In this document: positions 7,718 to 36,070 of the stretch, piece by piece
Layout of the letters: each line of letters opens with the position of its first letter
Numbering within the stretch: position 1 is the first letter of the stretch
IMG/VR virus record: IMGVR_UViG_3300017788_000076
Location: 1-37,022 of that record
Source of the DNA: a virus
DNA length: 37,022 nucleotides
Direction: 5' to 3' (one strand)
Notes under the pieces: model-generated
Seen by the model: only the letters and a program-made list of their open reading frames with translations
Database searches by the model: none
Told to the model about the DNA's origin: nothing
Position numbers and translations under genes: made by a program

Positions 7718-7719
7718 AA

Positions 7720-7804
7720 TAGGAACGGTCGGGATCGAACCGACAAGGACTTTACGCCCGACAGATTTTAAGTCTGTTGTGTTTACCAGTTTCACCACGC
7801 TCCC
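7720..7804 (-). tRNA. tRNA-Leu (anticodon UAA)
   Basis: The leftward strand folds as a class II tRNA. It has acceptor GGGAGCG with CGTTCCT, an anticodon stem ACAGA/TCTGT enclosing the loop CTTAAAA (anticodon TAA), a long variable arm typical of leucine tRNAs, and a T arm GTCGG-TTCGATC-CCGAC. The discriminator is A and CCA is not encoded. It reads UUA, a codon favoured by an AT-rich phage. Confidence 0.93.
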
Positions 7805-7805
7805 A

Positions 7806-7880
7806 TGGTAGGACCGCCGAGGATCGAACTCGGTTCTGCCGCTTATAAGGCGACGGCTTTAACCAATAAGCAACGGTCCC
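7806..7880 (-). tRNA. tRNA-Ile (anticodon UAU)
   Basis: A cloverleaf is clear: acceptor GGGACCG/CGGTCCT, D arm GCTT...AAGC, anticodon stem GTCGC/GCGGC with loop CTTATAA (anticodon TAT), and T arm CCGAG-TTCGATC-CTCGG. ACCA follows the acceptor, so discriminator A plus CCA is encoded, unlike its neighbour. It would decode AUA directly. Bacteria usually read AUA with a lysidine-modified CAU tRNA, so this gene bypasses that modification. Confidence 0.9.
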
Positions 7881-22653: not shown

Positions 22654-22981
22654 GTGTGTCAAGACGTTTTTGTAATCCCTCAAGGGTTTTTCTCATGTTG
22701 TTGAAGATGATTGACATGTCAACATCTTTAAACCCCATCGCTGCTGATGTGATCTTAATTTTTTCTTTCATCTCCAGTGCTTCTGGATCATCGGATAATG
22801 CAAGTCTTGTCCACATGACTTCTTGTTTATCTAAAAGTGTCTTTAGTTTTTCAATGTGTTCGTTCTTTTCTTTGTCACTAAATGAACTAAACTGAATAAT
22901 AACTTCGTATAATTCTTTTTGAATTTTGAATATGCTTTCCATCTCCTCACGAATAATCTCAGACTGAAAAAACTTACCCAT
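22649..22981 (-). CDS. DUF1825-like protein (110 aa)
   Basis: I choose ATG at 22981, eight bases inside the end of gp59; a longer form would need a TTG at 23035. The start MGKFFQSEIIREEMESIFK and the later LDKQEVMWTRLALSDDPEA resemble the small cyanobacterial DUF1825 family, which starts MGFFxSEIVQEEAKxLF and has a central helix with MERYxxFMKRFELSDD (remembered, not searched). The protein is all helical and acidic. Function is unknown in cyanobacteria and phage. Its place in the gp59-gp32 block hints at a replication or transcription partner, perhaps mimicking a host protein. Confidence 0.7.
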   Translation of the reverse strand: MGKFFQSEIIREEMESIFKIQKELYEVIIQFSSFSDKEKNEHIEKLKTLLDKQEVMWTRLALSDDPEALEMKEKIKITSAAMGFKDVDMSIIFNNMRKTLEGLQKRLDTP

Positions 22982-23576
22982 TCGCCTTCTCCGATAATCG
23001 CTCCCGCAAATATTCTTTATACTTACGGGTATCAATATTTAGAAACGGTGCATACTTCTTTAATTTTAGACTGATTGCTTCCCAGATTGGGTCAGTCAAT
23101 TTCTTATCAAGATTATTACCGAACAGGAAAATTTTATCGTAAATTGTAAGGGTTTCGATACTAATGTTCCCGCTCAGGAAATTCTTGAGCACTGGTGGAT
23201 GTTGTCTTGAAGCATCAAATAACTGCTCCAGGTTGTATTCAGACAACAAATCTTCTGTATGTTGCTTGAACTGATAGAATAAACTCTGCTGCCTTCCTTG
23301 CCAGGAAGAATAAACAGTCTCACCTGATCGAATAATCTCACCAATCCATAATGCATCTGGATTGTCACACGCTACAAAGTTAGCAACAAAAAATGCTTTG
23401 ATCTCATCATCATTATACTTCCTTGACATCTTTTCAAAGAAGTATCTGTCCTTTCTTTTATAAAAAGAATTTAAACTTGCTCTAGATTTGCCAGCATATC
23501 TAAAGTAATCATAATTTTTCCTTGTGAAATGCTGTTTGAATGCAAGATACTGTTTATAAGTATCAAACGGGTTCAT
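22974..23576 (-). CDS. 59: gp59-like helicase loader (200 aa)
   Basis: I take ATG at 23576 (MNPFDTYKQYLAFKQHF), because T4 gp59 has the same kind of start; a longer frame would begin with TTG at 23600. The next residues NYDYFRYAGKSRASLNSFYKRKDRYFFEKMS contain the landmarks YDYFRYAGK and FYKRKDRYFF, well conserved in gp59. Length is near T4 gp59 (217 aa). gp59 binds fork DNA and gp32 and loads the gp41 helicase, coordinating leading and lagging strands. It overlaps the radical SAM gene upstream by 14 bases and the DUF1825-like gene downstream by eight. Confidence 0.85.
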   Translation of the reverse strand: MNPFDTYKQYLAFKQHFTRKNYDYFRYAGKSRASLNSFYKRKDRYFFEKMSRKYNDDEIKAFFVANFVACDNPDALWIGEIIRSGETVYSSWQGRQQSLFYQFKQHTEDLLSEYNLEQLFDASRQHPPVLKNFLSGNISIETLTIYDKIFLFGNNLDKKLTDPIWEAISLKLKKYAPFLNIDTRKYKEYLRERLSEKANG

Positions 23577-24594
23577 AATTTTTAGGGTTGAACATTTCAA
23601 CTGTCTTCTTCTGTCCTTTTAATTGTATTTTAGCAGCATATTCAACTTTTGGTCTGCTTGGACACATGTTACAGATCCAACCAGGTTCTATAACTTCTTT
23701 GAATGAACTTCTAAGTGCTTCTTCAGTGTCATTGATGCTAGTTGGTTTATATCCAAGATATTTCTGCCACTCTGGATCTTCTAATTGATCTGTAGCTGCT
23801 AAAGATTCTCTTAGATATGCTACCATAGGACACTTCCACAAATGTCCATTATATAATTGAGAATTTGCACAGGTGCAATGGGTGAAACTAGCAGATGGAT
23901 CTCCATCTTCATATGGATAATATTTTATTGATCCATCTTCATTAAATTTATATTTTACAAGATCAAACCATATTCTTGGAGTATTATCTGGCTGCAAATA
24001 CGCTTCACTTAATTCAAACATATTATCGATATCAACACCACGTTCAATCAGATATTGAGTAAACTCATATCCATTTTCCCAATCTTTCTTACCCACTTGA
24101 GTATATGGTGGACGATGAAAGGTAAGTCTAAAGACAACACCCTTCAACATTTCATCAGCAATCCATTCCTTTTCTTGAAGAAGTCTAGATCCATTGCTGA
24201 ATAGTTTTACATTACATGGTTGTGATCCACGCTCACCATAACAAAGTTCTCTAACAATCCTAGTTACTTCTTTTGTTCTTGGTTCCAATAATGGTTCGCC
24301 ACCAATGATACTGACATGGCTCCAAACCCAAATCTTTGGGAGAATATTTTCTATATCCTCTATTAACTGATCAATGTCTACAGAACTTTTTCCCGAAAGC
24401 AAACTGCTATTATGATTACATCCTCTACATGAAAGATTGCAACCATTCATAGTATGGATACTAAGAAGTCTTGTAGTGGGTCTTTCTTTTTCAAGATCTG
24501 CGATTTGCTCAGCAGTTACTTGTTTAAAATTATCGACCCAAAATCCTTTCAGACTTCTAATGTATTCAACTTTTTCTTTCAGTTCTTTGTCCAT
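23563..24594 (-). CDS. Radical SAM enzyme with C-terminal second cluster region (343 aa), copy 1
   Basis: The radical SAM motif is C52-x3-C56-x2-C59 (GCNLSCRGCNH), followed by IIGGEPLLEPR with GGE at 98-100. The C-terminal part has C240, C242, C255, C308 and C311 within FTHCTCANSQLYNGHLWKCP and WICNMCPSRP. This resembles a SPASM/twitch domain holding a second Fe-S cluster, which is typical of enzymes acting on peptides or sugars. It is a paralogue of the protein at 26537 (same Cys spacing and same QLYNGxLWKCP). It lies between gp33 and gp59 with overlaps on both sides. Substrate unknown. Class B12, QueE or nucleotide-reductase activase seem unlikely, given the length and the extra cysteines. 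Confidence 0.82.
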   Translation of the reverse strand: MDKELKEKVEYIRSLKGFWVDNFKQVTAEQIADLEKERPTTRLLSIHTMNGCNLSCRGCNHNSSLLSGKSSVDIDQLIEDIENILPKIWVWSHVSIIGGEPLLEPRTKEVTRIVRELCYGERGSQPCNVKLFSNGSRLLQEKEWIADEMLKGVVFRLTFHRPPYTQVGKKDWENGYEFTQYLIERGVDIDNMFELSEAYLQPDNTPRIWFDLVKYKFNEDGSIKYYPYEDGDPSASFTHCTCANSQLYNGHLWKCPMVAYLRESLAATDQLEDPEWQKYLGYKPTSINDTEEALRSSFKEVIEPGWICNMCPSRPKVEYAAKIQLKGQKKTVEMFNPKNYEPV

Positions 24595-24857
24595 CAGATA
24601 AAAAATTTCGCTTTAGAAGTTCTCTTCAAATAATTTAGGTTAGTTGCATTCCACTTCAGTTTTTCTTTCAGTGGTTTTGAAATCAGTTTTACAATGGATT
24701 CAATTTCAATACTATTTTGCTCACAATAAAAACAAATTGCTTCAATATAATTTATACCAGAATTATCCTTTACAATGTTTTCTATGTCATTAGTAAACTT
24801 ATCTTGGCAAAGAAATTTGCTCTTGATAATAGATTTAATTTCATTTTTTGTAGTCAT
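24594..24857 (-). CDS. 33: gp33-like late transcription co-activator (87 aa)
   Basis: The central segment INYIEAICFYCEQNSIEIES followed by IVKLISKPLKEKLKWNATNLNYL lines up with remembered T4 gp33 (MSYLEATTAFLEENSIPETQ, then FIPSGIIEKIQSEAIDENLL), keeping YxEA, EENSIE-like and the LN(Y)L end. The last residues KAKFFI form a short hydrophobic C-terminus like the clamp-binding tail LDFLL of T4 gp33. gp33 bridges RNA polymerase and the sliding clamp at TATAAATA promoters, which fits the late promoters in this window. In T4 it lies next to gene 59; here a radical SAM gene is between them. It starts at ATG 24857, overlapping the nuclease gene by 17 bases. Confidence 0.75.
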   Translation of the reverse strand: MTTKNEIKSIIKSKFLCQDKFTNDIENIVKDNSGINYIEAICFYCEQNSIEIESIVKLISKPLKEKLKWNATNLNYLKRTSKAKFFI

Positions 24858-25506
24858 TTAGTTTGTCCTCCACAAATTTTTGAATGTACTTAACTAGTTT
24901 TTCCATGTACTGTTTCTTATCATACTCTTCATAAACTTCTACCTCACCATTTTCACACGTCATAATGATGACAAGTTTCTTTACTGGTATCTCCGTCATT
25001 TCATAAAACATACAAGCATATGCTGCTGCTTGCACAAAATAATTTTCGATCCATTGCTTTGGTTTTGGTTTTTCTGCAGTCTTAAAGTCAATGACTGCTA
25101 ATTCACCATTATACTCGGCAATACAATCTACTGTTCCTGCAACACCTAGCTCTTTACTGTATAAAGATTTCTCAAGAGCATAGATATTATTTATATTACC
25201 CAGGATTTTTTTCGCCTGAGTAAATAACATCTTTGGTAAAGGATCTGTATCTGGAACATCCTTATTCCAAAGGAAGTTTTCTATGCATGTGTGGACTTTA
25301 GTTCCACGAGATGTAGAACGTTTAGAAATACGGTTCGCTTCTTCCTCACCAACCCGTTCTCGCCATTTTACAAAGACTTCTTTATTGAAATGGGAGGTGA
25401 CCGAGGTAATAGATACCATCGGTCTACCTTCCACGGTATAATAACGAACTCCATCAATCGTTTCCCGTTTCAGTGCAGGAAACTCAATATCAACGTGTTG
25501 AAACAT
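24841..25506 (-). CDS. PD-(D/E)XK (RecB-like) exonuclease (221 aa)
   Basis: The nuclease core is visible: GVAGTVDCIAEY (D127), then LAVIDFKTA (D140 and K142, the D-x-K), then YFVQAAAYACMF (Q159-x3-Y163), the RecB-family motif order. Upstream, SRGTKVHTCIENF gives the H-x3-E of the same fold. I start at ATG 25506, which forms a TGATG junction with phoH; the frame also allows a TTG one codon earlier. It may trim DNA ends for recombination or degrade host DNA. It belongs to the run phoH-nuclease-gp33, all overlapping. Confidence 0.83.
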   Translation of the reverse strand: MFQHVDIEFPALKRETIDGVRYYTVEGRPMVSITSVTSHFNKEVFVKWRERVGEEEANRISKRSTSRGTKVHTCIENFLWNKDVPDTDPLPKMLFTQAKKILGNINNIYALEKSLYSKELGVAGTVDCIAEYNGELAVIDFKTAEKPKPKQWIENYFVQAAAYACMFYEMTEIPVKKLVIIMTCENGEVEVYEEYDKKQYMEKLVKYIQKFVEDKLNDYKK

Positions 25507-26261
25507 CAAAGACCCAAATTAATTTTGTTTAGAATGTAACTCTTGACAAGTCCAGATCTTACGATATCTTCAACGCCAAATTCGACGCTTTCAAATTCAG
25601 GCATCGCTTGAATAATTTTCATAAAATCTAGAATACCATTTCGTTCATTGGTTTTGATAAGGTCTGACTGCAATGCATCACCACAGAAATGGATCTTACA
25701 ATTTTCACCAACTCTTGTAATTATACTATCTAATTCGTGAAAATTCAAGTTCTGACACTCATCGACGATGATAATACAATCATCTAGTGTAGTTCCACGG
25801 ATGAAACTTGTAGACCAGAACTTTACACTTTCTTGTGTCTTGAGATTACCCCACAGCATTTCAAAATCATTGTCTGTAGGTAACTCAAACATATACTTTA
25901 CCATATTCTTATAAGGAATTTGGTAAAGAGAAGATTTATCTTCATGATCTCCTGGAAGGAAACCAATTTCTCTTGTAGCAACTAATGATCTTACAACTAC
26001 AACTCTATTATATGGCGTCAAAGGATTGAGGACTTCTTTCAATGCAAGGTACATTGTGATAAAGGTTTTGCCTGTACCTGCTGCACCATAAACAAAAACA
26101 TTTTTGTCTTCTTTATAAGCGTCAAAAACTTTTGTTTGGTTTTGTGTTAGCGGTTCAATATCGACCATCATATCGACATTGAAAGGTTTTTTTCTTTGCA
26201 TTTGTTTTGCTGATAATCCAGCTCCGACTTGGGAAGAAGTTTTTCTTTTCCTTGAGGACAT
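25506..26261 (-). CDS. phoH: PhoH-like ATPase (251 aa)
   Basis: Walker A is YGAAGTGKTF (residues 58-67), Walker B is CIIIVDECQN (162-171), and the C-terminal part has KIHFCGDALQSDL, a sensor-like motif of PhoH proteins. The ~30 N-terminal residues are basic. phoH is one of the most frequent cyanophage genes. It is a predicted ATP-dependent RNA/DNA helicase-like protein of unclear role, and the name comes from phosphate regulation in E. coli. It starts one base after the FmdB-like gene and overlaps the nuclease start. Confidence 0.92.
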   Translation of the reverse strand: MSSRKRKTSSQVGAGLSAKQMQRKKPFNVDMMVDIEPLTQNQTKVFDAYKEDKNVFVYGAAGTGKTFITMYLALKEVLNPLTPYNRVVVVRSLVATREIGFLPGDHEDKSSLYQIPYKNMVKYMFELPTDNDFEMLWGNLKTQESVKFWSTSFIRGTTLDDCIIIVDECQNLNFHELDSIITRVGENCKIHFCGDALQSDLIKTNERNGILDFMKIIQAMPEFESVEFGVEDIVRSGLVKSYILNKINLGL

Positions 26262-26262
26262 A

Positions 26263-26514
26263 TTAGAAGTGCGTTGTTTTCTGAGGCTTTACTTTTGAAC
26301 CAGGCATCTTGCTAACCTTATGAAGGATTTCATTCCATCCTCCATCAGTTCTACTATAAACGTCACCTACAGCACTCACGGCAGAAGCGACACCAGCAGA
26401 CCAATCTTTATCCCATTCGGGATTATCTTTTCTCCACTGATCGTAATCAGCAACAGACATAACAAGTTCCTGTGTTTCCCCAGTCTCTAAATGTTTGACA
26501 GGATAAATGGGCAT
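26263..26514 (-). CDS. Small FmdB-like protein without zinc ligands (83 aa)
   Basis: The start MPIYPVKHLETGETQELVMS has the layout of FmdB-type zinc-ribbon proteins (MPxYxFxCxxCGxxxE) but the Cys pairs are gone. The middle has DYDQWRKDNPEWDKDW, and the end GGWNEILHKVSKMPGSK is a helix followed by a basic tail, a pattern I recall from other marine phage proteins. Function unknown. AATAAATA 20 bases upstream may give it and phoH a late promoter. Confidence 0.62.
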   Translation of the reverse strand: MPIYPVKHLETGETQELVMSVADYDQWRKDNPEWDKDWSAGVASAVSAVGDVYSRTDGGWNEILHKVSKMPGSKVKPQKTTHF

Positions 26515-26533
26515 AGTTATTTCAATTCGTAAA

Positions 26534-26541
26534 TATTTATT
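26534..26541 (-). promoter_or_regulatory. Possible late promoter (AATAAATA) before the FmdB-like/phoH genes
   Basis: AATAAATA read leftward, one mismatch to the late consensus, 19 bases before the ATG at 26514. It overlaps the stop of the second radical SAM gene. Confidence 0.45.
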
Positions 26542-27343
26542 GGGTGGTGATAATTTTTTTATGGTTGTTGATTTGTAATGCTGCGCTAAACTTCAATGGT
26601 CTAGCAGTACACATGTTACATATTTGTTCTGGTTTACTAGAGTTATCACAGAATTTTACCAGATCTTCATCACTACAGTCAACTGGTAATCCATCACCAA
26701 TAAAAGGTTTCCAACAATCATCCTCTAATTGTTCAGTAACATAAAGAAGTTCCTTTAGAAACGCTGCATTAGGACACTTCCAAAGTCTTCCATTATAAAG
26801 TTGAGTATTCGGACAAGAACACAACTCAAAACTTTGTTTTATATTGTTATGTCCATAAGGATATACTTTACCATTAGATTGTTTGATCGAATTGAACCAA
26901 CGATCTTTTCCATCATGGTGTTCTGTAACAAGAACCTTAGAACTTTTTACCTTATTAATGTTCTCAATAACTTCTGGAGTATGAACACTAATACGTAAAG
27001 ACATGCCAGGATACTTCTCTAAATCTTCCTCAATCCATTGTCGGTTTTCCTCATTGAGAAGAATGCCATTTGTGTACAGATAGACTGTCTCATTGTGCTC
27101 TAGACAGGCGTGTAGGATGTCTCTACACCGTGGATTGAGCAATGGTTCTCCACCAATCACTGAGACACGTTCTACGTCTATCCTAGGCAGGATGGTGTGA
27201 ATATCTTGAATGAGTTTGTCAGTATCTAATTTACTTCCAGGAGCAAAATAATTACTGAAATGATTACATCCCTTGCAACTTAGATTACATCCAATCGTTG
27301 CACTAATATCAAGAATTTTTAATTTTGGGATTGTGGTAAGCAA
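26537..27343 (-). CDS. Radical SAM enzyme with C-terminal second cluster region (268 aa), copy 2
   Basis: C19-x3-C23-x2-C26 (GCNLSCKGCNH) and VIGGEPLLNPR (GGE 64-66) mark the radical SAM core. C175, C177, C190, C242 and C245 (LCSCPNTQLYNGRLWKCP and QICNMCTARP) mark the same auxiliary region as in copy 1, which is about 75 residues longer. No ATG is available before the motif. The start is probably TTG at 27343, which has TAGGAG nine bases upstream, lies inside the end of the carbamoyltransferase N-domain gene and overlaps it by 35 bases. The strong coupling to that gene suggests a shared pathway. Substrate unknown. Confidence 0.8.
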   Translation of the reverse strand: MLTTIPKLKILDISATIGCNLSCKGCNHFSNYFAPGSKLDTDKLIQDIHTILPRIDVERVSVIGGEPLLNPRCRDILHACLEHNETVYLYTNGILLNEENRQWIEEDLEKYPGMSLRISVHTPEVIENINKVKSSKVLVTEHHDGKDRWFNSIKQSNGKVYPYGHNNIKQSFELCSCPNTQLYNGRLWKCPNAAFLKELLYVTEQLEDDCWKPFIGDGLPVDCSDEDLVKFCDNSSKPEQICNMCTARPLKFSAALQINNHKKIITTQ

Positions 27344-28160
27344 GGTAAGCAGCTCCTATGGAAGTTCCACCATCATGTGCAATTGGTTCGGCATATATTT
27401 TTACATCTTCTGGTAACTGTTTACGCAGTTTATAATTTACAACACAGTTCAAGAAACATCCACCAGACAATACAAGGTTCTTACATTTAGTTTTCTTTAG
27501 TGCAAATTGAGCAAGTTCTAATGCACGTTCTTCCCAAAGAGTTTGAACTGTGTATGCAGCATCTTCTTTTGGTTTGAGTGCAAGATTACTTAAATCTACT
27601 CTATTAGATCCATATGATGACAGTCCCATGACTTTGCCAGCATCATCTCGATCAAATCCACAAAACTTAGACACATATTCAAATAATTTTCCCATACCTT
27701 CTTCAGGTGGATCCCAGTATTTTTTATGGATCGTTTTCCACTGAAATCGATTACTATTTTTTGCATGAATAATCGTTTCAATTTCTAGTTTATCCGCAAT
27801 ACTAGATCCATTACTGTCTACAATGATGCACACTGCTTCATCAAATCCAGAACTATAGAATGCTCCTGCAGCATGTGCTAAATGATGAGACTTTCTATAA
27901 TCAACGTGTTTAGCATTAGGAAATGCACGTTTGAACCGTGCAGTATCTCTAGCACTAATCATAGTTTTTTCTGGTGTAGACCATTGAGCATCTACTGTTG
28001 CAATCACATCAACATCAGTCACATAATCTACAAGATCCTTGACAACATAATCAAGTTTTTTTCTTGTAATTCTTTCTGCTTCCAAATAAAAATCTATCTG
28101 CCCATCCTTTAGTAGGCAAATAGATCCGTTATTAGAAAGATTTATTCCTAAAATATTCAT
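27309..28160 (-). CDS. Carbamoyltransferase N-terminal (Kae1-like) domain protein, lacks C-terminal domain (283 aa)
   Basis: The protein matches the N-terminal domain of NodU/CmcH/TobZ-type O-carbamoyltransferases. It starts MNILGINLSNNGSICLLKDG, has the metal-binding HHLAH (92-96) followed by FYSSGFDEAVCIIVDSNGS, GKVMGLSSYG, NLVLSGGCFLNC and a terminal HDGGTSIGAAYLAY. It stops right after this domain, so the C-terminal carbamoyl-adenylate-forming domain (with GRSEAGPRALGNRS in the neighbour) is absent. It shares the ATGA junction with the full-length paralogue at 28157. It might pair with the C-domain of the neighbour or have lost its activity. Confidence 0.83.
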   Translation of the reverse strand: MNILGINLSNNGSICLLKDGQIDFYLEAERITRKKLDYVVKDLVDYVTDVDVIATVDAQWSTPEKTMISARDTARFKRAFPNAKHVDYRKSHHLAHAAGAFYSSGFDEAVCIIVDSNGSSIADKLEIETIIHAKNSNRFQWKTIHKKYWDPPEEGMGKLFEYVSKFCGFDRDDAGKVMGLSSYGSNRVDLSNLALKPKEDAAYTVQTLWEERALELAQFALKKTKCKNLVLSGGCFLNCVVNYKLRKQLPEDVKIYAEPIAHDGGTSIGAAYLAYHNPKIKNS

Positions 28161-29743
28161 TTGGATATAAGTTTTTGAACTTCAGGGAAATAAAGATATT
28201 TGATATCACTATTATAAAAAGTTTTCAAAGCATCTTCTGGTGTTTCTACAAGCGGTTCTCCTGCAAGATTGAATGATGTGTTGAATAAAATAGGCACTCT
28301 TGTTTTTCTATAAAATGCCTCAATCAAATTATAATAATGTTCATTCTGTTCTTTTGTTACAGTTTGAATTCTACAAGTCTTATCAACATGAAGTATTGCT
28401 GGGACTTTATCATATGCATACTCTAAAGCGTCCACAGCATACATCATGAATGGACTTTCTTCCATGCCTGCCATATCAAACCAACCATGTACATATTCCT
28501 TTAGAACTGTGCCTGCAAAAGGTCGGAATGCTTCACGCTTTTTGATTGTGTTGACATGATCTTTCCCGTTAGGATCTCTCGGATCATACAAAATAGATCT
28601 GTTTCCCAGTGCTCTAGGACCAGCTTCAGATCTTCCCTGAAACATTGCAACAATATTCTTCTCAGAAATAAGTCGGGCAACTTCACTATATGAGGTATCT
28701 TTCCCTTCAATGTGAGAAAGGTCATAAGTTGGTCCTAGGTATAATGTTTTCATACTTGTTTTTTTATTAGAAACTAACATTGCAGATCCAAATGCATGTC
28801 CTCCATCATATGACAGGGGATCAGCATATAAATTTATGTCTAAAGATTTTAGCACATTATAGTTAGAAACACAATTCAAAAAGAACCCACCAGAAACTAC
28901 TACATTCTTCTTACCCGAAAGTTCAACTGCTTTTTTGATCATATAGATCGCATGTTTCTCAGCAGATTTTTGAAGATTGTATGCTATATTTTCATTCTTT
29001 ATTTCTTCACCATAATATTTTGTCCATCCAGCATCATCTCTAGGATAAATGTCTTTACTACAAAGACTATGCCCATATTCTTCATTGAAAAGATTGACTG
29101 GACCAAATCCATAAGCAGACAGTCCCATTGTTTTACCTGCTTCAATCTCATCAAACCCACAGTATCCAGAAACACATCTAAATGCTTGACCGATACTAAC
29201 TCTATTGCTGAATAAGTTTGTACCATCCCAGAATGGTTCTCCAAGTTTTTCACATAAAGAACGATTGTAAAAGCAAGAATAATGCTTAAACAATGGAACA
29301 AATTCTCCATTCACATAATTGTAAATGCTTTCTGTCTCACAAAATAATGTTCCGTCTTTACGAAGTACAGATCCTTTACCATCCATGACAAGACAGACAG
29401 CATCATCAAATCCTGATCCATAAAAAGCAGATGCTGCATGACATTCGTGATGATGATTTGAAAAATCTAAAACCTGTTTTACTCCTCTAGATTGAAGAAG
29501 TTGTTTTAGTTTTTTTCTAGCAGCAAGTCTTTCAGAATGTATTTTGAGTGAGTATCTTGTGAAACAATCAGAGTAAACTGCAACATCAATACTGCCATCA
29601 ACAAATTTTTCACATAATGCGTATGCACCAACATCACGTTTCTTTCTAGTAACTCTTTCTTCTTCAAGATAGAATTCTAGTTTCCCATCATTGACAATTG
29701 CAATTGATCCATTCTTTGCAAGATTTATACCAAGAACCTTCAT
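28157..29743 (-). CDS. Full-length O-carbamoyltransferase, NodU/CmcH/TobZ family (528 aa)
   Basis: I use ATG 29743 (ATGA with the thyX stop); the frame also has a GTG two codons earlier. The N-domain starts MKVLGINLAKNGSIAIVNDG, then HHHECH (97-102), FYGSGFDDAVCLVMDGKGS, AGKTMGLSAYG, VVVSGGFFLNC and YDGGHAFGSAM. The C-domain (about 333-528) has GRSEAGPRALGNRSILYDPR, EAFRPFAGTVL and PILFNTSFNLAGEPLV. Both domains look intact, so carbamoyl phosphate plus ATP should give a carbamoyl-adenylate that is passed to a hydroxyl. The acceptor is unknown. In this family it can be a sugar, an antibiotic or, in some phages, a modified DNA base. Confidence 0.88.
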   Translation of the reverse strand: MKVLGINLAKNGSIAIVNDGKLEFYLEEERVTRKKRDVGAYALCEKFVDGSIDVAVYSDCFTRYSLKIHSERLAARKKLKQLLQSRGVKQVLDFSNHHHECHAASAFYGSGFDDAVCLVMDGKGSVLRKDGTLFCETESIYNYVNGEFVPLFKHYSCFYNRSLCEKLGEPFWDGTNLFSNRVSIGQAFRCVSGYCGFDEIEAGKTMGLSAYGFGPVNLFNEEYGHSLCSKDIYPRDDAGWTKYYGEEIKNENIAYNLQKSAEKHAIYMIKKAVELSGKKNVVVSGGFFLNCVSNYNVLKSLDINLYADPLSYDGGHAFGSAMLVSNKKTSMKTLYLGPTYDLSHIEGKDTSYSEVARLISEKNIVAMFQGRSEAGPRALGNRSILYDPRDPNGKDHVNTIKKREAFRPFAGTVLKEYVHGWFDMAGMEESPFMMYAVDALEYAYDKVPAILHVDKTCRIQTVTKEQNEHYYNLIEAFYRKTRVPILFNTSFNLAGEPLVETPEDALKTFYNSDIKYLYFPEVQKLISK

Positions 29744-30375
29744 GCCCACTCAAGTGCTTCAGATACCACAGGAAACTGTTCTACAAACAGTTTCTTACAT
29801 TCGTTTGCAATGTCCATGTGTTCTTTTTGAGTTCCGTTTGCAGAACGAAGATTAATATAATGGATCCAAGAACGCACAGAACCAGACATATAAATGCGCG
29901 TAGGAGTTGCAAGAGGAAGTACAAAACGAGCGCATTCTTTTGCCACACCTTGACGTAGGAGTTCGTTGTATAACTCCATCGCATTTATAAAGTGATTGTT
30001 GATATACATTTGGAGATCTTTTTTAGTCTCCTCTGAGATATCATCAATAGAATTTTGGCGGTTCTTTGTATCCTGACTGCGAAGATCAGGCACAGGAATG
30101 CGATCACTCAAAAGATTTGTATCAGCATAACGTTGTGAAAATTCTTGATATGTGAAACTTCTATGACGTAAGATTTGAGCTGCAATACCACGGTTGGTTT
30201 CGATCTCAAGTGTCATAAACGCTTGCTCAAAAACAGACCAATGATTATGCTTAATGCAATAACGCAATATCCCTGCGTAGTTTTCGCTATCTTGGTTACC
30301 AGGGTTAGACACTCTAGCAACATATGCCATTGTTTGTTCTGCATCTGGCGTAACACTAATCAACTTCACTGTCAT
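29740..30375 (-). CDS. thyX: FAD-dependent thymidylate synthase ThyX (211 aa)
   Basis: The ThyX signature RHRx7S is at R70-H71-R72...S80 (ILRHRSFTYQEFSQRY), preceded by IKHNHWSVFEQAFMTLEIE and followed by GVAKECARFVLPLATPTRIYM and NLRSANGTQKEHMDIA, all typical. ThyX makes dTMP from dUMP with methylenetetrahydrofolate and NADPH via FAD. Start ATG 30375 has AGGA ten bases upstream; a longer frame would begin with TTG. It heads the replication/carbamoyltransferase block with the 60-aa gene, which it overlaps by 20 bases, behind the promoter at 30560. Confidence 0.93.
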   Translation of the reverse strand: MTVKLISVTPDAEQTMAYVARVSNPGNQDSENYAGILRYCIKHNHWSVFEQAFMTLEIETNRGIAAQILRHRSFTYQEFSQRYADTNLLSDRIPVPDLRSQDTKNRQNSIDDISEETKKDLQMYINNHFINAMELYNELLRQGVAKECARFVLPLATPTRIYMSGSVRSWIHYINLRSANGTQKEHMDIANECKKLFVEQFPVVSEALEWA

Positions 30376-30538
30376 TGTAACCAAATCCTTTTTTCTTTTT
30401 CTTGTTAAATTTCTTTGTTGCTAATCCTAAGATGGCATCATCTAAAGATTTCCTCATGTACAAGAGTTCAGCATCAGAATATTTCCAAGGTTGTTCTAGT
30501 GCTTTTTTAACCAGGCGAATTGTTTCCTTGTACCGCAT
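30356..30538 (-). CDS. Hypothetical basic protein (60 aa)
   Basis: The first gene after the strong promoter at 30560-30588, with AGGAGG ten bases before its ATG. It starts MRYKETIRLVKKALEQPWKY, has a helical LLYMRKSLDDAILGLATKKF and a Lys-rich tail (NKKKKKGFGYNDSEVD). No family recognised. The basic tail could bind nucleic acid. It overlaps the thyX start by 20 bases. Confidence 0.68.
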   Translation of the reverse strand: MRYKETIRLVKKALEQPWKYSDAELLYMRKSLDDAILGLATKKFNKKKKKGFGYNDSEVD

Positions 30539-32938: not shown

Positions 32939-32967
32939 AGTATAACATTTGTTTATGTTCTTGTCAA
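32939..32967 (-). promoter_or_regulatory. Sigma70-like early promoter TTGACA-17-TATACT
   Basis: The -35 TTGACA (32967-32962) contains the psbA TGA stop. The -10 TATACT (32944-32939) abuts the terminator stem. Transcripts begun here would start inside the ascending arm of the hairpin and so would lack it, while psbA read-through would form it. Confidence 0.65.
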
Positions 32968-34043
32968 CCAATGGCAGGTGCAGTCAGTGCAACAGGAGTT
33001 GCATCCGCAGCAGCAAGATCTAGAGGAAAGTTGTGTGCATTACGTTCATGCATTACTTCCATGCCAAGACCACCACGATTTAGAATATCAGCCCAAGTGT
33101 TAATCACATGACCCTGACTATCTTGGATAGACTGGTTGAAGTTGAAACCATTCAGGTTGAATGCCATGGTGCTAACACCAAGAGCAGTGAACCAAATGCC
33201 TACAACTGGCCAAGCAGCTAAGAAGAAGTGCAGTGAACGAGAGTTATTAAAGGAAGCATATTGGAAAATAAGGCGTCCAAAATAACCGTGAGCAGCAACG
33301 ATGTTATAGGTCTCTTCTTCTTGACCGAACTTGTAACCATAGTTCTGACTTTCGTTCTCAGTGGTTTCACGAACAAGCGATGAGGTTACCAACGAACCGT
33401 GCATTGCACTGAACAGAGAACCACCAAACACACCAGCAACTCCAAGCATGTGGAAAGGATGCATCAGAATGTTATGCTCTGCCTGGAATACAAGCATGTA
33501 GTTGAACGTACCAGAGATACCCAGAGGCATCGCATCAGAGAACGAACCTTGACCGAATGGATAGACCAAGAACACTGCAGAAGCAGCAGCAACAGGTGCT
33601 GAATATGCAACACAGATCCAAGGACGCATACCAAGACGGTAAGAAAGTTCCCACTCACGACCCATATAGGCATAGATGCCGATCAAGAAGTGGAAAACAA
33701 TCAGTTGAAAGGGACCACCGTTATAAAGCCATTCATCTAGACTTGCTGCTTCCCAGATAGGATAGAAGTGAAGTCCGATAGCGTTAGACGATGGAACAAC
33801 AGCACCAGAAATGATGTTGTTTCCGTACATGAGTGAACCTGCAACTGGTTCACGAATACCGTCGATATCGACGGGAGGAGCAGCGATGAAAGCAACGATA
33901 AAGCAGATAGTTGCTGCGAGAAGGGTAGGAATCATTAGCGTTCCGAACCAACCAACATACAAACGATTGTCAGTTGAGGTTACCCATTCACAGAACTCTT
34001 GCCAAGTATTGCTTCCACGCTGCTGAGCGATGGATGCAGTCAT
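32964..34043 (-). CDS. psbA: Photosystem II reaction-centre protein D1 (359 aa)
   Basis: Full-length cyanobacterial-type D1. Counting residues gives E130 (the high-light type; low-light D1 has Gln), Tyr161 (TyrZ), D170, E189, H190, H198, H215, S264, H332, E333, H337, D342 and A344, so all manganese, pheophytin, chlorophyll and quinone-site residues are present. The nine residues after A344 ([13 protein letters not shown] region) would be removed by the CtpA protease. Five membrane helices are evident. During infection the phage copy replaces damaged host D1 and keeps electron transport going. It has an early and a late promoter upstream, a 5' stem-loop, and its own terminator. Confidence 0.98.
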
Positions 34044-34150: not shown

Positions 34151-36070
34151 TCATCCTTTCATTCCTTTGAGTTTTTCGATCCGTTCTGCATCAATTCTTT
34201 TTAAATGAGATGGTTTGTGATCAGACCATATAGCATCGTTGACAGTTAATGTCGTTTCAGACCATAATCTTTTTTGTCTAGCAAGACTATTGATAGTTGG
34301 TGATGTACTTGTATAAGTGTTTCTTTCATTTTCATTTGCAAAAATATTATTCCAATCCATCATTGTTATGTGCTCATGCTTAGCATGAATTTTAGGATTT
34401 AAGTTAGTATACTGTTGAAGTTCTTTTAAAAATTCGTTTCTTCTTTTCCACTGAGAAGTATCTCCTCTTTTCGGATGTTTTCCTTTCCTATTCTTATTTT
34501 TAAGATCAAATTTTAAATCAACTCCAGCTACCTTAGTTGATGGTGGTTTATTGATTACACGAGTTACTTCCATTCCCGAGAATTGTCTAGCTGCATCAAA
34601 AGAATGTTGATCTCTATTGGATCCTACTAACGACCATTCCCACCAAAGATCACAAAATTTATTAAAAATTTTATCTGACTTGATTGTTCTCCAAAGCATC
34701 GTACAGCATGGACTAATATATTGCTTGAAATTATATCCAGATTCTGCTAATTTTTTTGTCAGTTCTACTCCTTGTTCATATGAAAAAAATGAACATAAAA
34801 ATCCTTCTAACATTTCATCGTAATAATTAAACTCATAGCAATGCTCTAATGTAGTTACTCCTTTTGTAGGAAATACTTTTCTTGAGTATTCAACAAATTC
34901 TTTTGTTTGAATGTAACAAGCGTCTATCCATACAGTATTGTCACCTGGATTGAATAGTTTATGTGGATTAATTTTTGGAAACGCAGATAATCTTCTAGGG
35001 CACTCTATATTACAATAGTCTCTAACATCAATATATTCCCACGGTCCTTTTGTAGTATCAATTGTACCATCATGAAACATAACATATCTTACATTTGGAT
35101 CGTAGTAATTCTCTTCTGGAATGTTATCATAATTATTTGTAATACAACTATAAATGATGAACGGTTTATCATCAAACTTTTTCAGTAATTTTTGATGCCT
35201 TTTATATGTTATCTCCTTATATTTTGTTGATGGTATATCACTGAATATTTTATGATTGATCATCTGATTGTAAATATCTCCATATCCAAGCGTTTTCAAA
35301 TATAACAAACGAGATAAATCAATTTTTGTTTTACAATCTATTTTCGATGAAATTGAAAGTCTTTCAAGAAATGCTTTCCAATTCAATTCGTTTTTCCCAT
35401 CAGAATAATTACCAGATCCACCTAGTAAATTATTCCACCAACCCTTATAAAAAGTAAATTTAGATATTGTTTTTGCTGGATGTTCTCTATTGTAATCTAT
35501 ATTTGATAACTTTAACGAAACAGAACCAGATAATTGATCTCTAGGATTGCATTTATCATATAGTTTCCACCAAAGAGTTGACCATTTGATTATATCTTCA
35601 GTTGGGGTTCTCCATAGAATACATGCAAAAATTGTTTCATGATTTAAAAAATCATATTGAAGTTTTTCTAGATCTTTTGTTTGATTAATTATTTTATCTT
35701 CCTTAACCCAAGATCTAATGTAATATTCTAAACACTCTTCAAAATAATTATGTTGCTCAGGATGCTCTAAAATAAAAAGTTTTTTATTTTTTAAAATTTT
35801 TTCAGATAAATTAAAAAATTGTTGATTATTGATCAAATGCAGACGAGAAGCATCAACATAAACGCAAGGTTCATCAAAATATTCATGGAACATAATCTTA
35901 GGATGCCTTGATAATACAACAGGATCCTCGTGTTTGTATTTGATGTCTCTCAATTCCCAAGGAGATTTTGGTTCAACAGTTCCATCATGAAAACAGATAT
36001 ATTGATGTCCAAGATCTTCGATCTCAGGAAGTTCACAATAGTTATTTGTAATAGAGGTATAAATGATCAT
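34151..36070 (-). CDS. Two-domain DUF616-like glycosyltransferase candidate (639 aa)
   Basis: Two related domains follow one another. Domain 1 (1 to about 295) starts MIIYTSITNNYCELPE and has YICFHDGTVEPKSPWELRD, LSRHPKIMFHEYF and CVYVDASRLH. Domain 2 (about 302-530) has FIIYSCITNNYDNIPEENYY, YVMFHDGTIDTTKGPWEYID, CPRRLSAFPKINPHKLF, TVWIDACYIQTKEFV and SNRDQHSFDAARQFSGM. The pattern (YTxITNxYDxxP, FxDG, PRRxSxxPKxxPH, xWIDG) is what I remember of DUF616 (TOD1/MUCI70-like), a GT-A-like glycosyltransferase family. The last ~110 residues are basic. It forms an ATGA junction with its upstream paralogue. Donor and acceptor are unknown. Confidence 0.68.
   Translation of the reverse strand: MIIYTSITNNYCELPEIEDLGHQYICFHDGTVEPKSPWELRDIKYKHEDPVVLSRHPKIMFHEYFDEPCVYVDASRLHLINNQQFFNLSEKILKNKKLFILEHPEQHNYFEECLEYYIRSWVKEDKIINQTKDLEKLQYDFLNHETIFACILWRTPTEDIIKWSTLWWKLYDKCNPRDQLSGSVSLKLSNIDYNREHPAKTISKFTFYKGWWNNLLGGSGNYSDGKNELNWKAFLERLSISSKIDCKTKIDLSRLLYLKTLGYGDIYNQMINHKIFSDIPSTKYKEITYKRHQKLLKKFDDKPFIIYSCITNNYDNIPEENYYDPNVRYVMFHDGTIDTTKGPWEYIDVRDYCNIECPRRLSAFPKINPHKLFNPGDNTVWIDACYIQTKEFVEYSRKVFPTKGVTTLEHCYEFNYYDEMLEGFLCSFFSYEQGVELTKKLAESGYNFKQYISPCCTMLWRTIKSDKIFNKFCDLWWEWSLVGSNRDQHSFDAARQFSGMEVTRVINKPPSTKVAGVDLKFDLKNKNRKGKHPKRGDTSQWKRRNEFLKELQQYTNLNPKIHAKHEHITMMDWNNIFANENERNTYTSTSPTINSLARQKRLWSETTLTVNDAIWSDHKPSHLKRIDAERIEKLKGMKG

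Follow-up and report, generated by a model that had tools for sequence, protein, structure and literature searches.

Radical SAM and split O-carbamoyltransferase genes in two slots of a cyanophage replication block: a candidate saccharide-tailoring cassette

The 37,022-base virus record IMGVR_UViG_3300017788_000076, analysed over its whole length and called the window below, carries psbA at 32964-34043 (photosystem II D1, phrog_182, E 7.9e-201) and is therefore a cyanophage fragment. Its minus strand encodes two radical S-adenosylmethionine (SAM) proteins, rSAM1 and rSAM2, and two carbamoyltransferase-family proteins, one with two domains (CTfull) and one with a single transferase domain (CThalf). 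Three of these genes fill a slot bordered by thyX and a PHROG 385 gene (slot A), the fourth, rSAM1, fills a slot between gp33 and gp59 (slot B), and four core genes separate the two slots. On balance, we favour reading the four genes as an exchangeable cassette for saccharide tailoring, which would carry out oxidation and O-carbamoylation of what is presumably a phage-specified saccharide. This reading is built on the families of the four proteins, the folds of two of them, intact cofactor and metal residues, a modular split of the carbamoyltransferases, the co-occurrence of the genes and the sugar-enzyme context of relatives. The set recurs in relatives with its order unchanged, and is thus beyond chance; within it, the pattern resembles two couples, each of a radical SAM protein and a transferase domain, that share a single activating domain.

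CTfull (28157-29749, minus strand, 530 residues, with the likely ATG at 29743) matches PF02543 and PF16861, phrog_1601 (E 1e-140), and VtdB, GdmN and TobZ. Its Kae1-like transferase domain, CTN1 (approximately residues 1-330), is fused to a YrdC-like activating domain, CTC (approximately residues 331-530), which provides the Carbam_trans_C match within the chain (PF16861, E 6.3e-61). CThalf (27309-28160, minus strand, 283 residues) is 38% identical to CTfull and is a stand-alone TobZ-type Kae1-like transferase domain, CTN2, matching Carbam_trans_N and HypF_C_2 but giving no PF16861 match in the Pfam scan. An AlphaFold2 (AF2) model of CThalf, with a predicted local distance difference test score (pLDDT) of 91.7, has TobZ as its top structural match (Z 26.3, 259 residues, root-mean-square deviation (rmsd) 2.7), tied with GdmN, NovN and VtdB (Z 24.6-26.0), while Kae1 is lower at 22.4. 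An earlier sequence-only reading of the window had described two carbamoyltransferase-family proteins; CTfull is indeed an intact two-domain enzyme, and CThalf is TobZ-like in fold but, having one domain and no Carbam_trans_C, is not a complete NodU/TobZ member. The positions equivalent to TobZ H114, H118, D137 and D338, which we take to be metal ligands and whose numbering was worked out from the alignment, are invariant in 19 of 19 CTN1 and 30 of 30 CTN2 sequences, the window's included, and by these residues CThalf looks catalytically intact. Without an activating domain of its own, CThalf would have to get carbamoyl-adenylate from elsewhere, and the C-terminal domain of CTfull would be the obvious source.

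Relatives were fetched with rSAM2 (best 80 of 136 matches) and rSAM1 (31), and with three PhoH proteins as neutral anchors, for each of which the best 80 of at least 600 matches were taken, a sample and not a census. The open reading frames (ORFs) of the fetched loci were labelled by profiles, and the 115 loci with both slots complete were dereplicated by PhoH sequence and class to 89, of which 30 have an activating domain in slot A and 59 do not; no carbamoyltransferase or radical SAM gene of the profiles was found in either slot of these 59. Long records were also available for relatives: G001 (171,943 bases; it contains the sister locus L023 and shares all four genes), G002 (112 kb) and G004 have the full set, G003 has part of it and G005 none. 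CTfull itself matches 144 phage records, of which 117 bear the name Synechococcus, Prochlorococcus or cyanophage.

The carbamoyltransferase is modular across these loci. CTC is fused to CTN1 in five of the 30 loci with an activating domain (L009, L010, L020, L030 and L095), as in the window; in the other 25 it is a separate ORF, found with a separate CTN1 or with CTN2 only, and foreign genes lie between split CTC and CTN1 in some loci. CTN1 and CTN2 form separate tree branches that match their position (support 99 and 92). The sequence-only reading had treated the four genes as one set, which does recur in relatives and proves divisible, with carbamoyltransferases also found without radical SAM genes; the refuting condition named in that reading, independent occurrence of the four, thus applies in part. 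At four loci the gene between the separated transferase and activating-domain genes is a PF03013 pyrimidine-dimer DNA glycosylase (L047:2532-3044, L059:5784-6293, L070:2390-2935 and L108:3061-3567). In L027 and L029 another gene takes the place of CTN1; a sulfotransferase label for that of L027 was rejected, its match being weak and below cut-off (E 0.048). Slot B also holds adjacent carbamoyltransferase and radical SAM genes of a second type (L060:3916-6290, L138, L139, L274, L275 and L277-L280), with a carbamoyltransferase of about 460-480 residues and, in L060, a radical SAM protein of the NF033640 type.

The two radical SAM proteins, rSAM2 (26537-27343, minus strand, 268 residues) and rSAM1 (23563-24594, minus strand, 343 residues), both match PF04055 (Radical_SAM) and are 37% identical, in line with their earlier description as paralogues. 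The CxxxCxxC, GGE and C-terminal cysteine motifs described as intact in the same reading are invariant, with all four C-terminal cysteines, across 30 aligned sequences including the window's two. An alignment of 36 sequences shows seven invariant cysteines: three belong to the SAM cluster motif, and the others are C175, C190, C242 and C245. All seven are likely ligands and no invariant cysteine is to spare, which speaks against an epimerase that uses a cysteine as its hydrogen donor. The AF2 model of rSAM2 (pLDDT 90.6) is of the twitch type and is closest to the SpeY entries (Z 20.7-21.3; 235 aligned residues and rmsd 2.8 for the first entry), while all other structures reach Z 12.5 or less, with BtrN (12.5), SkfB (12.2), SuiB (11.8) and viperins (about 11) tied among themselves. 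SpeY, which we take to be a spectinomycin biosynthesis enzyme, is titled a twitch radical SAM dehydrogenase in the PDB, and is the best sequence-profile match as well (E 2.4e-13 and 6.9e-16). The structure prediction proposed earlier for the pair covered rSAM2 alone, and placed it nearest SpeY at Z 21.3; rSAM1 is assigned to the twitch type by its alignment to rSAM2 only. BtrN, according to the passages of PMC9012708 that concern it, oxidises an alcohol of 2-deoxy-scyllo-inosamine, with a four-cysteine auxiliary cluster as the likely electron acceptor. Our best guess is that the radical SAM proteins of the window would likewise catalyse a dehydrogenation.

A viral-structure search with the rSAM2 model returned generic phage radical SAM proteins only, and the two proteins missed the 170-bit cut-off of NF033640 (N_Twi_rSAM) at 35.2 and 34.8 bits. 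A viperin or anti-phage role was considered and rejected, with scores of 25.6 and 37.8 bits against a cut-off of 180 for NF038283 and weak core-domain matches of 18.7-41.4 bits to PADLOC pVip. By tblastn against 50,697 phage records, two match rSAM1 and three match rSAM2, and the only annotated isolate is S-SCSM2R. Further radical SAM genes occur in relatives. A third, different one (L272:9512-10627, at about 114.5-115.6 kb of G001; 371 residues, phrog_21308) is the last ORF of at least 80 residues ahead of thyX in G001, and radical SAM matches in frames of 370-371 residues are also present in G002 and G004; the window's ORF list holds no third radical SAM ORF at the equivalent place ahead of thyX. 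A third paralogue related to rSAM1 and rSAM2 lies in slot B, alone in L028 and in tandem with rSAM1 in L044, L052, L055, L141, L142 and L147.

The distribution of the genes suggests specific partners. Of the 30 CTC-bearing loci, 18 have CTN1 and 16 of these carry rSAM1, against one of the 12 that lack CTN1 (Fisher 1.5e-5); rSAM1 shows no association with CTN2 in the same loci (p = 1). The exceptions are L010, whose slot B holds another radical SAM gene and a PHROG glycosyltransferase, L059, where slot B is empty, and L113; when the rSAM1-anchored loci and L113 are removed, the counts are 13 of 15 versus 0 of 11. rSAM2 is found in 25 of 29 loci with CTN2 and in none of 60 without it across the 89 dereplicated loci, a link that cannot be tested inside the 30 CTC loci because 29 of them carry CTN2. 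The p-values for pairing ignore kinship. The clearest single cases are the near-sisters L020 and L021, which differ jointly in CTN1 and rSAM1, and L095, which is without both CTN2 and rSAM2.

The same slots hold sugar enzymes in relatives. A scan of bacterial genomes gave 23 loci, the best of which, L113 (PAQA01000006.1), is titled a Rhodospirillaceae metagenome-assembled genome but is cyanophage DNA, since ThyX, PhoH, the exonuclease, gp33 and gp59 are all present. Its slot B is the richest seen, with a 306-residue gene without family, a carbamoyltransferase, a radical SAM gene, a glycosyltransferase, an rSAM1-type gene, an epimerase and a DegT gene. The rSAM1-type protein is 43% identical to rSAM1, falls on the slot-B branch of the tree and is encoded next to the glycosyltransferase (phrog_1962, E 1.7e-09, partial match), a neighbour kept in 13 of 13 close relatives fetched with the L113 radical SAM protein (83-100% identical); a nucleotide-sugar epimerase and a DegT aminotransferase, families assigned on the L113 copies, then follow before gp59 in five of these 13 and in L113. 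The remaining 22 loci of the bacterial scan are relatives at 24-28%; the Pfam check, which covered L126 and two genes of L114 among these, found one epimerase gene and four glycosyltransferase genes in the former, and one glycosyltransferase and one gene without family in the latter.

Slot B of L138 carries a carbamoyltransferase, another radical SAM gene, a UDP-glucose-dehydrogenase-family gene and a glycosyltransferase, and slot fillers in relatives without the set include a GT2-family gene (L165), an epimerase/dehydratase (L189) and 2-oxoglutarate (2OG) oxygenases (L158 and L195). In the isolate S-SCSM2R the radical SAM homologue (28% identical) is flanked by genes annotated as glycosyltransferase and AHBA synthase, with a gene annotated as inosamine amidinotransferase three genes on. 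In G001 a sugar island stretches over about 90-103 kb of the record and comprises MannoseP_isomer, three epimerase-family ORFs, DegT, GT17, GT11, GT25 and GT2. Three further labels were rejected: sulfotransferase for the 306-residue protein of L113 (no Pfam match up to E 1, and no PHROG), SGNH for L103 (E 0.093, below cut-off) and polysaccharide deacetylase for a 229-residue protein of L138 (no family found); like the label of L027, they serve as by-eye names only. As the slots are shared with sugar-building genes and rSAM2 resembles SpeY, the set is more likely to decorate a sugar than viral DNA. The sequence-only reading had proposed a carbamoylated product that was either a hypermodified base or a glycan; these slot neighbours, the SpeY likeness and the G001 island uphold the glycan, and the base is taken up below.

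Under the cassette reading, the C-terminal domain of CTfull would turn carbamoyl phosphate and ATP into carbamoyl-adenylate, with which the two TobZ-type transferase domains, one fused and one separate, would carbamoylate hydroxyls. Each transferase domain would have a SpeY-like radical SAM enzyme of the twitch type as its own partner, and this enzyme may oxidise a secondary alcohol on the same sugar (or cyclitol) through hydrogen abstraction by a 5'-deoxyadenosyl radical and electron transfer to an auxiliary 4Fe-4S cluster. The product would be a modified sugar on a phage-specified glycan, at the host surface or on the virion. The dehydrogenation, the sharing of the activating domain, the partner pairing, the saccharide substrate and the location of the glycan are what we infer from the observations above. 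We would also entertain, more tentatively, a plug-in machine in which one carbamoyl-adenylate subunit serves several transferase domains in trans, each linked to a radical SAM alcohol dehydrogenase that serves it alone; a lineage could then change its sugar coat by swapping such pairs through the two fixed slots.

Several observations weigh against the cassette reading. Pairing is not obligate, as rSAM2 is missing from four of the 29 loci with CTN2 and rSAM1 from two of the 18 with CTN1. Among the PhoH-anchored loci alone, only five of 64 dereplicated loci have an activating domain, with CTN1 and rSAM1 together in two of two versus 0 of 62 and CTN2 and rSAM2 in three of five versus 0 of 59. 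On the core-gene tree, the supported branches yield only four independent contrasts for CTN1 and rSAM1, which run in the same direction in 3.5 of four on average and never in the opposite one; with so few contrasts the test is not significant. Seven loci (L028, L044, L052, L055, L141, L142 and L147) have the L113-type radical SAM gene with no glycosyltransferase beside it, six of them with this gene in tandem with rSAM1. The glycosyltransferase labels are partial PHROG matches, for which Pfam gives none in the case of L113 and a match below cut-off in that of L138. The 112-kb record G002, with the full set, has no PF01370, PF00535 or PF01041 match, and among the window ORFs scanned there is one weak glycosyltransferase match only (34151-36070, phrog_26101, E 2.8e-07). 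Fold similarity, moreover, is no proof of reaction. Finally, the slots hold genes that are not sugar enzymes, including pyrimidine-dimer glycosylase, AIR synthase and AdoMet decarboxylase.

This last point, together with the 2OG oxygenases, also speaks for independent accessory genes, in which case the radical SAM and carbamoyltransferase genes would be separate items of cargo collecting in these two slots with no common substrate; that carbamoyltransferases occur without radical SAM genes fits such an account. It is rather unlikely, however, given that rSAM1 tracks CTN1 and not CTN2 despite the four core genes between the slots, that the 59 loci without a slot-A activating domain never have this radical SAM family in either slot, and that another carbamoyltransferase/radical SAM neighbour pair recurs in slot B.

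We consider it improbable that the set modifies a peptide or protein, be it by maturation like that of ribosomally synthesised and post-translationally modified peptides or on a virion protein, through a SPASM/twitch radical SAM enzyme and carbamoylation. The structural neighbours of the rSAM2 model do include SkfB, SuiB, EpeE and ChlB, and SkfB is tied with BtrN, but these four stand at Z of about 11-12 against 21 for SpeY, and the NCBIfam peptide-maturase families listed fall far below their cut-offs. No precursor peptide gene was noted by the set, although no search was aimed at one.

A hypermodified DNA base, which the sequence-only reading had offered on account of the adjacent thyX, would require that a carbamoyltransferase acts on a hydroxymethyl base, that the radical SAM proteins alter bases and that thyX feeds the pathway. 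CTfull does adjoin thyX, and 5-hydroxymethylcytosine (5hmC) carbamoyltransferases are known from phage metagenomes, where, as reported in the relevant sections of PMC8670742, they co-occur with PF00303 thymidylate-synthase homologues. The partner found here is instead ThyX (PF02511), which keeps its place in the 59 dereplicated relatives without the set. PF00303 (the dCMP-hydroxymethylase type) was found in none of five relatives' records (G001-G005) and PF00145 in none of four, but such absences weigh little where the records may be fragments; a PF12851 search (0 of 4) was uninformative because its controls gave no match either. Identity between CTfull and the described 5hmC carbamoyltransferase is 25%, and the two have different residues at all three positions flagged in the available text of PMC8670742: at the equivalents of TobZ W408, G421 and R423, with the TobZ register drawn from match coordinates and spacing, the window has M, G and R and the 5hmC enzyme, as read from its printed sequence, has I, C and T, so that the window agrees with the TobZ letters at two of the three. 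Base modification was accordingly abandoned as the leading reading, and we now hold it to be distinctly improbable.

Still less probable is a diffusible aminoglycoside- or aminocyclitol-like metabolite made by the phage. SpeY stands out as the structure nearest to the rSAM2 model, the top match of CThalf, tied with GdmN, NovN and VtdB, is TobZ, which we take to be an aminoglycoside-pathway enzyme, and S-SCSM2R has its annotated inosamine amidinotransferase gene near the radical SAM gene. Against this, the myo-inositol-phosphate synthase family PF07994 is found in none of five records, and the presence of genes for glycosyltransferases and nucleotide-sugar enzymes suggests a glycan bound to a polymer. 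A role in pyrimidine biosynthesis as aspartate carbamoyltransferase, ascribed to carbamoyltransferase genes of S-SZBM1 and Nanhaivirus ms29 in passages of PMC9146016 and PMC10436341, can be set aside, since in Pfam, in the PDB and by fold the window genes match the NodU/TobZ family, and the gene annotated as carbamoyltransferase in the S-MS29 record, which may not be the paper's gene, aligns to CTfull over 99% at 42.9%.

The cassette lies in a compact minus-strand block in the order thyX, CTfull, CThalf, rSAM2, PHROG 385 gene, phoH, exonuclease, gp33, rSAM1 and gp59. The ORF list, Pfam and PHROG confirmed the four ORFs at the coordinates first given and the identity of their neighbours. All neighbours are on the minus strand: ThyX (29740-30384, PF02511), the conserved border of slot A; the PHROG 385 'transcriptional regulator' (26263-26514), its other border; PhoH (25506-26261, by Pfam) and the PD-(D/E)XK exonuclease (24841-25509, by Pfam and PHROG), core genes between the slots; the late-transcription coactivator gp33 (24594-24857, by Pfam), a border of slot B; and the helicase loader gp59 (22974-23600, by Pfam), its other border, which overlaps the end of rSAM1. 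The set had been described as embedded in a replication block, and the neighbours bear this out with the correction that it occupies two slots, as three genes and one. ATGA overlaps were read in the sequence at ThyX/CTfull, the coupling of the two-domain enzyme to thyX already pointed out in the sequence-only reading, and at CTfull/CThalf; the ORFs of CThalf and rSAM2 share 35 bases, the start of rSAM2 being unsure. The minus-strand region 30595-30560, which lies upstream of the thyX block, has a terminator-like hairpin with T-run (30595-30577) that overlaps a promoter-like match, TTGACT-17-TATAAT, and is a possible operon border. At 7719-7880 the minus strand carries two tRNA genes in tandem, for Leu(taa) and Ile(tat).

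We found no described system that joins a twitch radical SAM dehydrogenase-like protein to a split, shared O-carbamoyltransferase in one open literature library, nor is the combination described in the available parts of PMC9301287 and PMC7150976; PDB code 7WZV, and SpeY together with BtrN, drew no mention in that library. A carbamoyltransferase C terminus and myo-inositol-1-phosphate synthase are listed in part of PMC5705922 among the antibiotic-synthesis genes of ocean phage contigs. The set links one branch of the common cyanophage carbamoyltransferases to sugar oxidation chemistry of an antibiotic type and to slots shared with sugar-building genes. If the cassette reading is right, a tailored glycan could control co-infection, or the recognition of virions, in abundant marine cyanobacteria, and the set would offer a natural split of the Kae1/YrdC type, with a single activator for several transferases.

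Comparison with known systems places each part of the set. The radical SAM proteins share with SpeY, and more distantly with BtrN, the fold, CX3CX2C and four further cysteines, and with SpeY a YxGxLxxCP-type stretch, BtrN being no closer to the rSAM2 model than SkfB by Z; unlike SpeY and BtrN, to which identity is about 20%, they are phage-encoded, occur as two or three paralogues beside carbamoyltransferase genes and have a reaction that is only predicted. The carbamoyltransferases have, like TobZ, GdmN, NovN, VtdB and NodU, a Kae1-like transferase with the same metal-ligand positions and a YrdC-like domain, but here the domains are split and recombined, with one activating domain per one or two transferase domains. 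The 5hmC carbamoyltransferase system, so far as the sections of PMC8670742 describe it, is alike in its two-domain superfamily, phage origin and thymidylate-synthase neighbour, and differs in that neighbour being a ThyA homologue instead of ThyX, as well as in the low identity and flagged positions given above. Exchangeable radical SAM cassettes with glycosyltransferases and lipopolysaccharide-type genes are also described for the hypervariable region of pelagimyophages, marine T4-like phages, in part of PMC7029224; these belong to another phage group and another place in the genome, and the word 'carbamoyltransferase' is absent from the main text of that paper. The cyanophage 'Nol-like carbamoyltransferase' (phrog_1601), for example of S-RIM44, P-SSM2 and S-MS29, is of the same family; in the isolate S-RIM44 it likewise occupies the interval from thyX to the PHROG 385 gene, there with its domains as separate ORFs, and by tblastn none of the three has a radical SAM partner. 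Each enzyme family of the set is already known, and it is their joining that would be new.

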